Assembly: GCA_007122875.1 (NCBI GenBank)
Contig: SKSS01000010.1
Coordinates: forward strand, 1 to 36,030
DNA from: Salinarchaeum sp.
GTDB taxonomy: Archaea; Halobacteriota; Halobacteria; Halobacteriales; QS-1-68-20
Direction: 5' to 3'
Length of the DNA stretch: 36,030 nucleotides
The position numbers and the translations under genes were made by a program. Under the pieces are notes generated by a model. That model was not told the origin of the DNA, made no database searches, and saw only the letters and a list, made by a program, of their open reading frames with translations. Of the stretch, positions 7,281-25,624 are shown piece after piece (position 1 is the stretch's first letter; each line of letters starts with the position of its first letter).

Positions 7281-7571
7281 ATGGGAACGATCTCCGCGCG
7301 AGTGCCCGACGATCTCGAGGCAGCGTTGGCGGCGTACGTCGACGAGGAGAATCTCGATCGAAGTACTGCGGTCCGAAAGCTCCTCACCGAGGGGCTCTCC
7401 GAATGGCGAGTCGAGCGGGCACTCAACCAGCTCGAGGCAGGTGAGGTGAGCTTCAGCCGGGCCGCCGAACTCGCCGACGTGTCCGTGTGGGAACTGTCCC
7501 GGCTGGCGAAAGAGCGAGAGGTGACCTGGGTGTCGTCGGACCATCTCGGTGACGACCTCGACGATCTCTGA
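7281..7571 (+). CDS. UPF0175 family antitoxin-like protein with RHH-like N-terminus
   Basis: MGTISARVPDDLEAALAAYVDEENLDRSTAVRKLLTEGLSEWRVERALNQLEAGEVSFSRAAELADVSVWEL; overlaps the next gene by 1 nt. Confidence 0.82.
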   Translation: MGTISARVPDDLEAALAAYVDEENLDRSTAVRKLLTEGLSEWRVERALNQLEAGEVSFSRAAELADVSVWELSRLAKEREVTWVSSDHLGDDLDDL

Positions 7572-9231: not shown

Positions 9232-10467
9232 TCATCGGCGGGCGGCTCGGACGACCCACCCGAGGACGAGAGCGGATGCGATCAGCGAGAGTACGAGACC
9301 GGTGAACGCGGCGGCGTAGCTGATCCGTCCCGCGACGAAGCCCACGTACGTCGGGCCGAGACTCCCCAATCCGAGATACACCGTCCTGACGCCCCCGAAG
9401 TCGCCGCCTGCGCTTCCATGGGGAAAGAGCGTCATCACGAACGCGAGCATCGGCGGCGAGAACGCCATCAGCCCGACGGCGAAGACGACGATCGAGAGCA
9501 ACACGAGTTCCTGCGTCGGCGCGGCCACGATCCCGGCGAGACCGACCGCTCCGACGACGAGTGCGCCGAGCGCGACCGTCGATCGGCCGATTCGATCGCC
9601 GACCGCCCCCGAAAGCGGCTTCACGACGACGCCGATCAGAAACAGCATGGCGAACGCCCCGCTGGCGAGCGCCGGGTCGAACCCGCGTTCGAACTGGAGG
9701 AACGTCGGCAGAAAGCTGACCGCCCCCTGCCAGGTGACGAGATAGAGCGCGTACGCCAGGATCACCAGGCGAACCGTGTCGTCCCCGAACAGTCGGTCTG
9801 CGGTGCCACGAAGATCAAGCCGCGGCCGGGCGACCGCGTACGGCTCGCGCCCCCAGCGGTGGACGAGCAGCGCGACGACGACCGCGAGACAGACGACCGG
9901 GACGAACGCCGCTCGCCACGCGCCGAGCGAGAGCGCGACGATCGCGAGTCCAGCGGCGAACGCCCCGCCGAGATCCCAGTGAGCGGTGTAGACGCCGAAC
10001 GCGCGGCCGCGCTGGTCGACGAACAGGTCCGAGAGCAGCGCGTAGGCCGAACTCGGAAAGAGGCCCGATCCGATTCCGACGACGGCCGCGCCGAAGAGAA
10101 AGGAGACGAAGCCGGCGGTTCCACCCGAGTCGACGATTGCGGGCGTCACGAGCAAAACGAGAAAACCGGTCACGAGACCGGCGAGTCCCGCGACGAGCAG
10201 CGTCTTCCGGGTGAACTGATCGGAGAGTCGCCCGCCCGGAAACTGCCCGAGCGCGTTGAGACCCCAGAGAACTGAGAGGGCGATCCCCGCCTGGAACGCG
10301 CTGATTCCGAGGTCGTCGATGATCGCGGGGAGCAGCGGGGCGAGCACGAGCGTCCCCAATGCGATCGTCGCGTTACCCATCGCAACCGCGCCGAGCATGC
10401 GTCCGGTGTGGCCGCGGAACAGCCGCTCCTCGTGTGGCTTCACCGTCCGTTCCTCGCTCCCGTCCAT
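9232..10467 (-). CDS. MFS transporter
   Basis: About 12 hydrophobic segments; GRLSDQFTRKTLLVAGL resembles the MFS loop 2-3 motif. Confidence 0.92.
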   Translation of the reverse strand: MDGSEERTVKPHEERLFRGHTGRMLGAVAMGNATIALGTLVLAPLLPAIIDDLGISAFQAGIALSVLWGLNALGQFPGGRLSDQFTRKTLLVAGLAGLVTGFLVLLVTPAIVDSGGTAGFVSFLFGAAVVGIGSGLFPSSAYALLSDLFVDQRGRAFGVYTAHWDLGGAFAAGLAIVALSLGAWRAAFVPVVCLAVVVALLVHRWGREPYAVARPRLDLRGTADRLFGDDTVRLVILAYALYLVTWQGAVSFLPTFLQFERGFDPALASGAFAMLFLIGVVVKPLSGAVGDRIGRSTVALGALVVGAVGLAGIVAAPTQELVLLSIVVFAVGLMAFSPPMLAFVMTLFPHGSAGGDFGGVRTVYLGLGSLGPTYVGFVAGRISYAAAFTGLVLSLIASALVLGWVVRAARR

Positions 10468-22756: not shown

Positions 22757-23626
22757 ATGGAGGGACGTGCAGCGGCCCCCGGTGCGGGAACCGTGCTCAA
22801 CGCGCTGGCGACCGGCGTCGGATCGGCCTTCGCCATCGACGCCGAGGTGACCGCAACCGTCCGCCTCGATCCAGAGTGCGACACCGTCACCGGCGAGGTT
22901 GAGGCGGCTCCGGACGCCGATACGCGCCTGATCGAACGCTGCGTTGCCCGCACGGTCGAGACCTACGCGGACCACGACACGGGATCCGATCGATCACCGG
23001 GTGGCCGCGTTCGAACGGCGTCGGAGCTTCCGATGGCATCCGGGCTGAAGAGTTCGAGCGCCGCCGCCAACGCGACCGTGTTGGCGACCTGTCGCGCGCT
23101 GGGCGTCGACCCCGACCCTGTCGAGGCGACGCTGCTCGGGGTCGAGGCCGCCCGTGAGGTCGGCGTCACCGTTACGGGCGCGTTCGACGACGCAAGCGCG
23201 AGCATGCTCGGCGGCGTGACCGTCACCGACAACCACGAGGACGAACTGCTCGCGACCGACACCGTCGACTGGGACGTACTCGTCTGGACGCCCCCCGAAC
23301 GGGCCTACAGCGCCGACGCCGATGTCGAGCGGTGTCGACGGATCGCCCCCGTTGCCGATCTCGTCGCGGAACTCGCCCTCGACGGCAGATACACGACCGC
23401 GATGACGGTCAACGGACTGGCGTTCTCGGCGGCGCTCGACTTCCCGGCGGGCCCGCTGATCGATGCGCTCCCCCATTCGGAGGGTGTCTCGCTGTCGGGA
23501 ACCGGCCCGAGTGTGACGGCCGTCGGCGATCGGGAGTCGATGGCGGCGCTCCAGGAGACGTGGGAGGAGCGACCGGGGACGACGTGGATGACAGAAACCA
23601 GAGCGGAGGGAGCGAGAATCGAATGA
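22757..23626 (+). CDS. aroK: Archaeal GHMP-type shikimate kinase
   Basis: MEGRAAAPGAGTVLNALATGVGSAFAIDAEVTATV; SELPMASGLKSSSAAANAT (GHMP motif); LSGTGPSVTAVG. Confidence 0.93.
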   Translation: MEGRAAAPGAGTVLNALATGVGSAFAIDAEVTATVRLDPECDTVTGEVEAAPDADTRLIERCVARTVETYADHDTGSDRSPGGRVRTASELPMASGLKSSSAAANATVLATCRALGVDPDPVEATLLGVEAAREVGVTVTGAFDDASASMLGGVTVTDNHEDELLATDTVDWDVLVWTPPERAYSADADVERCRRIAPVADLVAELALDGRYTTAMTVNGLAFSAALDFPAGPLIDALPHSEGVSLSGTGPSVTAVGDRESMAALQETWEERPGTTWMTETRAEGARIE

Positions 23627-23669: not shown

Positions 23670-23966
23670 ATGACCGAAGAGCATCCCGAACCGGACGAGA
23701 TGAATCTCGACGAACTCCGCGAGGAGATCGAGAACATCGACCGCGAGATCGTCGAACTCATCGCCCGGCGGACGTACGTCGCAGAGACGATCGCGGCCGT
23801 CAAGGATGACCGGGACCTCCCGACCACCGACGAGAAACAGGAAGAACGGGTGATGGAGCGTGCCGGTGACAACGCCGAACGCTTCGACGTGGACGCAAAT
23901 CTGGTGAAGGCGATCTTTCGGCTGTTGATCGAGTTGAACAAAGTGGAGCAGCGCGAGAAGCGATGA
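23670..23966 (+). CDS. Chorismate mutase (AroQ class)
   Basis: MNLDELREEIENIDREIVELIARRTYVAETIAAVKDDRDLPTTDEKQEERVMER. Confidence 0.94.
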   Translation: MTEEHPEPDEMNLDELREEIENIDREIVELIARRTYVAETIAAVKDDRDLPTTDEKQEERVMERAGDNAERFDVDANLVKAIFRLLIELNKVEQREKR

Positions 23967-24070
23967 CAGGGTAACGGATTTCGGCTGCTAAGCGTGTGTT
24001 TTATCCTGATCAGCTATCAGCAGTAGCACCAATGACAAAGGCACCCTCTGTTCGGGAAGCAAGAATAGGT

Positions 24071-24405
24071 AAGCTCCCCACGGCTAAAGCCGTGGGCTTT
24101 CACCATGGACTCCCGATCTAACCAAAGCTGGTGCGGGTTCAAATCCGCTCTCGTTCAGCGTCCCGGCGTTTATACGCACGCCTACGGGTGCGTCTCCGTC
24201 CGAGGACTTGCGCAACGGACGGAGGAGGTTGAAGCCGACGTTCTTCGCCGCGTTGTAATCGGCGTGAAGCTCGTAACCGCACTTCTGACAGCAAAAGGAA
24301 TCCTGCGACGGGCGGTTGTCGGGGTGGGTGAAGCCACAGTCTGTGTGCGAGCATTGCTGGCTCGTGTACTGTGGGTTCACCTGAAACACGGTCGCGGGGA
24401 GGCAC
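24071..24405 (-). mobile_element. tnpB: 3' remnant of an IS200/IS605-type element carrying a 5'-truncated tnpB
   Basis: [57 protein letters not shown]: TnpB zinc finger and final RuvC motif (ADYNAAKN). Ends in hairpin CCCACGGC-TTTA-GCCGTGGG. No N-terminal or RuvC-I/II part present. Confidence 0.88.
24077..24096 (-). repeat. Right-end hairpin of the IS element (candidate omega/re-RNA 3' hairpin)
   Basis: Perfect 8-bp stem with a 4-nt loop; the tnpB stop codon (TAG) overlaps the loop and 3' arm. Confidence 0.75.
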
Positions 24406-24574
24406 ACACCTCCACCTGTCCGTGTTCGCAGCGAACGATATTGCGGTCCGCTTCTACGAATCACGGGGATTCCAGCGGATAGAAACGGTCACTGACGAAA
24501 CGTTTGGTGAACGACGCTACCGCTACAGAAAGACGTTGGAAAACGGCTCCTATACCCACCAGTAATTTTCCGTG

Positions 24575-24859
24575 TCAGGGAAATTCATCGTAGATTGAGG
24601 ACCGATGACCGATCGCGCCGACCTGCATCACGCTCATCTCACGGTCGAACCGGACGATAGCCCGATAGTTGCCGACCCGTACCGACTGCCAGGGCTTCGC
24701 ACCAGTCAGGGGTTTGGCGAACTCCGGCGGGTCGCGGAACTCGTCGGTTACCACCGCGTCGAATTTATCGAGTAGCCGTTGCTGAGTTTCGGCGTCGAGT
24801 GCGTCAAGGCCGTCTGCTGCCCTTTCGGAGAGTTCCCACGTCCACTCGTCGTCATTCAT
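24575..24859 (-). CDS. RelE/ParE-family type II toxin
   Basis: MNDDEWTWELSERAADGLDALDAETQQRLLDKFDAVVTDEFRDPPEFAKPLTGAKPWQSVRVGNYRAIVRFDREMSVMQVGAIGHRSSIYDEF. Start chosen to overlap the antitoxin gene by 8 nt. Confidence 0.9.
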   Translation of the reverse strand: MNDDEWTWELSERAADGLDALDAETQQRLLDKFDAVVTDEFRDPPEFAKPLTGAKPWQSVRVGNYRAIVRFDREMSVMQVGAIGHRSSIYDEFP

Positions 24860-25124
24860 CCGTTCCGAATCGCTCTCGTGCTTCCTCGGCACTTACCGTC
24901 TCTCCTGCGTCGAACTGTCGTTCGCTCTCCAACAGGTCTTCAAGCGTTCGCTTCGACAGGCGCGTTCCGTACACCGCATCCCGGAGCGCCTCACGCATGA
25001 ACTCCGAACGCGAGTTGTAGCCTTGTTCCTGCCACTGCTCGTCTAAGTCTGCGAGGAAATCCTTCGGAAGCCGGAGATTCACCTTCTCGTCGCTCCCGTC
25101 AGCGGCGGTGTCGGATTGAGCCAT
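24852..25124 (-). CDS. Ribbon-helix-helix antitoxin
   Basis: MAQSDTAADGSDEKVNLRLPKDFLADLDEQWQEQGYNSRSEFMREALRDAVYG, followed by a toxin-binding-like tail; upstream of and overlapping the RelE-like gene. Confidence 0.9.
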   Translation of the reverse strand: MAQSDTAADGSDEKVNLRLPKDFLADLDEQWQEQGYNSRSEFMREALRDAVYGTRLSKRTLEDLLESERQFDAGETVSAEEARERFGTDE

Positions 25125-25147: not shown

Positions 25148-25624
25148 CCAAGAGTGTTCGGCTTCCCGGAGTCATTGAGGGGGGCCGGTTCAACATCGGA
25201 GAAAACGGCAATATCGACACGAGTCTTTGACATCAGTCCGAGACCTGAGCAAGGTAGAGCAACGGGACAGTCGGTGAAATCGCATCCGCGAGAGGACGGC
25301 CGCGTATGCCACGGGATCGCGTTCGACAGCCCCCAGCGAACCCGAACGGCCGTGTGGTTGTACCAATCCATCGGATGGAGCGACGATCACGTAGTGCCCC
25401 CCGTTCGGCAATGCAGGAGCCGCACGGATGCAGCCCCCTCCCCCCAGTGTACCACTCAACCGGAACTGGACCTGCTCAGAGGAGCAGCACCGCCCCGCGA
25501 CGGCGCACACCCTAGGATACACCTCCCAAAAAGCCCCGTCACTAACTGTTTTGGACGAGCCCTCACCGCTCACCGATTCACCTCGAACCACTCCACCGCG
25601 AAGTCCACGAGCGGCCGACGACGC

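Follow-up and report, generated by a model that had tools for sequence, protein, structure and literature searches.

Split GNAT pseudogene beside chorismate mutase and a candidate site for cassette integration in haloarchaea

How did a GNAT acetyltransferase gene come to lie in two pieces, and why does it stand directly behind a chorismate mutase (CM) gene? The locus belongs to a Halobacteriales genome that is 60% complete (G000), one contig of which, a stretch of 36,030 nucleotides called the "window", was analysed. The original prediction, a GNAT gene split by the remnant of a TnpB element, is confirmed by alignment to a relative (G298) and by tnpB matches; the cassette array surrounding the gene had not been recognised. 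Considered together with this array, the 3' end of CM is probably a site-specific cassette integration site, and the GNAT gene a passenger that was later destroyed by a TnpB element and a deletion.

The interrupted GNAT gene

The GNAT 5' remnant (24032-24068, plus strand) starts with the ATG at 24032 and comprises 12 full codons (MTKAPSVREARI) and one further nucleotide. The TTTTAT box noticed earlier is present ~30 nt upstream of this ATG (about 23999-24004, plus strand), as a TATA-like sequence with a putative promoter role. The 3' remnant, including the stop codon, occupies positions 24384-24565 (plus strand); a search of 394 genomes of the order places its closest relative in G298, with 80% amino-acid identity. 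Both fragments align to this single G298 gene, rather than to different genes. It sits at the same locus, in the order shikimate kinase, chorismate mutase, other genes and GNAT, and does not carry any inserted element. Window positions 23932-24068 match G298 positions 7393-7529 with ~75% DNA identity, the upstream leader and the GNAT start being common to both; a chance or misread start is ruled out, since the G298 GNAT begins with MTNAPSVREAR behind the same leader. The similarity resumes at 24383 (GAAACACGG) with 84.7% nucleotide identity over 169 nt (24383-24551), and the encoded 3' segment begins with ETRSRGG, slightly ahead of HLHLSVF. A further relative, L006, has the N-terminal IREA/VREA spacing in common with the window GNAT.

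Between the two pieces lies a 315-bp remnant of an IS1341-type TnpB element (24069-24383, minus strand), identified by blastn to intact elements and by its Cas12f1-like_TNB domain, and made of the right end and ~291 nt of tnpB. The right end begins at 24069 (GTAAGCT), a terminus common to the intact elements L050 and L051: similarity to both begins exactly at this position, and that to L051 ends exactly at 24383. It harbors a hairpin, CCCACGGC-TAAA-GCCGTGGG (24077-24096, minus strand), with a perfect 8-bp stem, which is conserved in L049 and present with an altered stem in L051. The tnpB 3' fragment (24084-24383, minus strand) covers the zinc-finger/RuvC-III region and corresponds to ~24% of a tnpB gene of 1230 nt. 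For the antisense ORF 24464-24084, the match is to Cas12f1-like_TNB (E 4.3e-15), and the TnpB match is also above the cut-off in the genome search. Intact tnpB elements that share this right end are found in other haloarchaea, those on plasmids of Halorientalis and Natrinema having a 1230-nt tnpB. The window remnant thus displays the right-end hairpin and TNB domain of the IS200/IS605-family IS1341-type elements, without their left end and most of tnpB. Another truncated tnpB lies within a cassette of a different array (L091, 2972-3520 in CM-oriented coordinates).

The boundaries of the insert are defined to the nucleotide. The insertion point, predicted at ~24070/24071, was right within 2 nt and is corrected to 24068/24069 by the same-locus GNAT relative in G298. 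The deletion junction, expected at 24395-24410, is instead located 12-27 nt earlier in the G298 and tnpB alignments: the tnpB similarity ends at 24383 (CACCTG) and the GNAT similarity starts there, so that the true 3' junction is 24383/24384. The two similarities share the single base at 24383, hence microhomology at the junction is trivial at most. The losses proposed at the outset are found as well. From the element, the left end and ~940 bp of tnpB, its 5' part, are absent; from the gene, ~303 bp of the middle are missing, including the acetyl-CoA-binding motif A (Q/RxxGxG/A), the corresponding region of which is kept in G298 (YRIYVLPEQCGEQIGSTLL). The two GNAT pieces are in the same frame by chance, and this frame is closed by a stop at 24119-24121. 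We judge the window GNAT a dead pseudogene, ordinary in kind. Since the flanks on either side are parts of a single gene in a single orientation, a chimeric assembly is unlikely, as judged from the assembled sequence.

These features are all accounted for by the predicted insertion followed by an internal deletion. The TnpB element would have entered GNAT codon 13, with its right end towards the GNAT start. A deletion would then have taken away its left end, some three quarters of tnpB and ~300 bp from the middle of GNAT, so that tnpB now abuts the GNAT 3' part. This order of events is the one we infer, as no intermediate bearing the element before its deletion is seen in near relatives. The intact orthologue that had been called for exists in part: the G298 copy (L053, 7493-8219) is uninterrupted by the element, but it has a frameshift of its own near codon 14, and its 3' end is fused to the tail of a gene known from cassettes L077.4 and L086.1. 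It therefore serves as a sequence reference and not as a functional one, and its state indicates that deletions inside arrays may be frequent.

In the TnpB family, guide (omega) RNAs are made from the right-end hairpin and the tnpB 3' region. Both are retained in the 315-bp remnant, the strand of which folds somewhat better than its shuffles (z -2.2), and other TnpB genes are present in the genome. The idea that the remnant has been kept for a guide RNA acting in trans is nevertheless unsupported and highly improbable: these other tnpB genes are not close (best 75% over 133 nt), no Rfam match rises above threshold, and the fragment is embedded in a dead gene, where no trace of selection is seen.

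Repeated chorismate mutase tails and their R ends

Upstream of the GNAT remnant, the window encodes an archaeal shikimate kinase (22757-23626, plus strand), identified as an ORF with an orthologue in G298. This conserved CM neighbour, annotated also in plasmids L095-L099, is followed by CM itself (23670-23966, plus strand; Pfam CM_2, E 2.6e-18). The CM 3' tail (23934-23966, plus strand; TTGAACAAAGTGGAGCAGCGCGAGAAGCGATGA), which emerges from pattern and model searches, forms the first "core" and the proposed integration site. The window-G298 similarity ahead of GNAT starts at this core, inside the last CM codons. Downstream of GNAT, a type II toxin-antitoxin pair is encoded on the minus strand, with a ParE-family toxin (24575-24892; Pfam ParE_toxin, 2.4e-6) and a ribbon-helix-helix antitoxin with a putative start codon (24852-25124; Pfam RHH_1, 1.3e-6). 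Behind this pair comes a displaced second core (25245-25277, plus strand; CTGAGCAAGGTAGAGCAACGGGACAGTCGGTGA, encoding LSKVEQRDSR*), preceded on its 5' side by a conserved cassette right end, R (25200-25244, plus strand), recognised by alignment and by a model match (G000:C10:25201-25277, E 4.2e-14) at a site that belongs to the model's own training set.

The same arrangement is widespread in the order. A pattern of the last CM codons (LNKVEQRE) was searched in 295 genomes: most have a single match and roughly a third, by a hand count of the table, have two or more, while the reversed pattern used as a control gives almost no matches in the same genomes. Multiple tails number 2-5 per locus and are found downstream of CM, on the same strand, 0.35-5.5 kb apart, with distances of 0.5-5 kb being usual. 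Twenty arrays from genomes, and more from annotated plasmids, were compared. The core corresponds to the final ~33 bp of CM. Just upstream of the displaced cores stands a conserved ~25-bp end (R), which is absent from CM and has two related versions, GAATCTGTAACGTCAGTCTGAGAC and GAATCCATTATGGATTTCAGCTAC. A sequence-only model of the R+core site, trained on 46 of them, detects this layout in genomes outside its training set, for instance G034 (2e-19), G055, G061, G062, G035 and G078, and a displaced copy in about 37 of 98 genomes (hand count). Between the CM core and the displaced cores of the same array, 143 codon differences are synonymous and 35 non-synonymous, an excess expected if the displaced copies formerly encoded the end of CM.

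Could the split GNAT be a plain IS-plus-deletion pseudogene, and the tail repeats the leftovers of unrelated duplications, without any site-specific process? Positions 24032-24565 are indeed fully explained without the array, and recombinases are absent from the arrays examined. The conserved R before displaced cores, together with a strand and spacing that agree between unrelated genera, makes this improbable; it also fits poorly with the exchange of whole cassettes, and is contradicted by the core-to-core empty/filled pair (see below).

Cassette exchange and an empty/filled pair

The segments between cores behave as cassettes. The 46 delineated span 0.35-5.5 kb each and carry genes for VapBC/PIN, MazEF, ParE, NikR, LysE, DoxX with an FAD oxidoreductase, P-type ATPase, Nramp, GNAT and others, often on the opposite strand. 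Whole cassettes are found in more than one genus, the similarity stopping at the cores, as exemplified by L096.3/L097.3 (93% over 750 nt), L098/L099 (90% over 720 nt) and L078.2/L081.1 (91%). Their order also varies: the LysE and MazEF cassettes are swapped between G298 and L086, and the GNAT cassette, which adjoins CM in the window, stands in G298 behind LysE and MazEF genes. Before the arrival of the TnpB element and the deletion, the window GNAT was probably a passenger of a CM array.

The clearest case is provided by two congeneric genomes, G142 (locus L128, one core) and G096 (locus L081, two cores). Their CM genes are 97.7% identical, and the downstream flanks, starting 4-5 nt past the core, show 91% identity over 1.5 kb. 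Compared with L128, L081 possesses one extra cassette of ~877 bp exactly between its two cores. The target gene is restored, a displaced copy stands at the far end, and the empty site is found in a relative. The CM tail of the filled locus departs from that of the empty locus at 7 of 33 positions and is similar to the core that precedes this cassette in L078, from another species; it appears to have been brought in by the cassette. Over all shared cassettes, the co-inheritance of core and cassette is weak (mean core identity 0.81 vs 0.76), for which reason the proposal that cassettes bring their own CM tail is treated as suggestive.

Two other routes to such arrays have to be weighed against this pair. 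In the first, a transposase or a Cas1-like integrase would duplicate the CM tail as its target upon insertion, instead of recombining att sites. Each insert is flanked by repeats, the arrays lengthen at a single spot, like CRISPR arrays or casposons, and the arrays yielded no tyrosine recombinase, all of which would suit this route. A duplicated target, however, hardly accounts for a filled L081 tail that departs from L128 and is L078-like although CM is otherwise 97.7% identical, nor for an R conserved on one side only, and we regard it as unlikely. In the second, the arrays would spread solely by ordinary homologous recombination between the CM loci of different species, with no present-day site-specific insertion. 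The conserved CM coding sequence could supply the homology, and the weak overall co-inheritance of cores and cassettes agrees with it. Such recombination, however, moves existing arrays and does not alone create a new core and R boundary, and the L081 insert leaves both flanks nearly unchanged; there is perhaps a small chance that it is the whole explanation.

A putative capture mechanism and its relation to known systems

Site-specific integration at CM, the most economical interpretation, would proceed as follows. A small circular cassette, made of a core, one or more genes and R, would recombine through its R+core site with the last ~33 bp of CM. The gene would keep a coding 3' end while the old CM tail is pushed downstream, and arrays of the form CM-core-cassette-R-core-cassette-R-core would accumulate. 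On balance, we slightly favour the view that this represents a CM-anchored cassette capture system of haloarchaea, previously undescribed, in which a recombinase acting in trans inserts cassettes in tandem, each carrying a replacement CM tail and R. With about the same reserve, the system may be seen as integron-like in function, with another site and another enzyme, its cassettes being often toxin-antitoxin modules and adaptive genes.

The searches for the enzyme and the carrier were negative within their scope. No recombinase occurs in any array examined; an HMM built from haloarchaeal integrases detects no integrase among the array ORFs, and none of the 25 most frequent Pfam families in the cassettes is an integrase. 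No free circular form was found, and the site is absent from the viral contigs and phages searched, while the plasmid matches looked at carry CM itself. In the literature, queries on CM as an integration site and on integron-like arrays or cassettes in haloarchaea returned nothing relevant; the CM-tail cassette array was not found described in the searchable papers.

Integron cassette arrays, including CALINs and archaeal integrons, are likewise built from tandem exchangeable cassettes with a repeated recombination site (Ghaly et al. 2022, PMC9668308, in which neither haloarchaea nor "Halobacteri-" is mentioned). CM arrays are rich in toxin-antitoxin modules. Integrons, however, use a folded attC and possess intI, whereas CM arrays use a coding CM 3' end with R, show no attC-like single-strand fold (37 sites, mean fold z -0.43), have no intI found beside them and often contain opposite-strand genes. 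Islands inserted by tyrosine integrases at the 3' ends of tRNA or protein genes share with CM arrays a restored gene end and a displaced copy at the far end, but CM-array units are 0.35-5.5 kb long, devoid of integrase and accumulated in tandem; the archaeal review on the subject (PMC8371274) does not mention chorismate mutase. Casposons and CRISPR arrays are, like CM arrays, polarised, with repeats at a fixed site. In contrast, Cas1 was not recognised among the cassette families listed for CM arrays, and the repeat is a protein-coding tail, apparently cassette-borne in the one resolvable case (L081/L128).

The broken GNAT alone is of little importance. The CM array, in roughly a third of the sampled genomes and in several families, would be a locatable hot spot for the gain and loss of toxin-antitoxin, transport and enzyme genes in haloarchaea. 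With its defined site and an unambiguous empty/filled pair, it allows the recombinase to be sought experimentally, and it could be a natural integration site for haloarchaeal genetics.

A few R+core sites are located far from CM. In L105 (G050), L106 (G079), L109 (G002) and L110 (G042), VapBC or MazEF modules are accompanied by R and a CM tail; no CM gene was detected in the stretches fetched, that of L109 lying at a contig end, which suggests ectopic or moved cassettes. In G091 (L107), a tyrosine integrase (PF00589, 7720-8901) is encoded ~330 bp from an ectopic R+core site, with its core at 9249, away from CM. It is unlikely as a general partner: its homologues are rare and distant, with matches at E 1e-30 only in 7 of 98 genomes, G091 included, and these are not tied to arrays. 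G026 possesses two shikimate kinase-CM loci, L113 (C1) and L092 (C2), one of which is on a 316-kb plasmid and bears an array. Finally, two successive displaced cores of L090 (4956 and 7011) each stand behind identical 60-bp right ends, which suggests a recent event.
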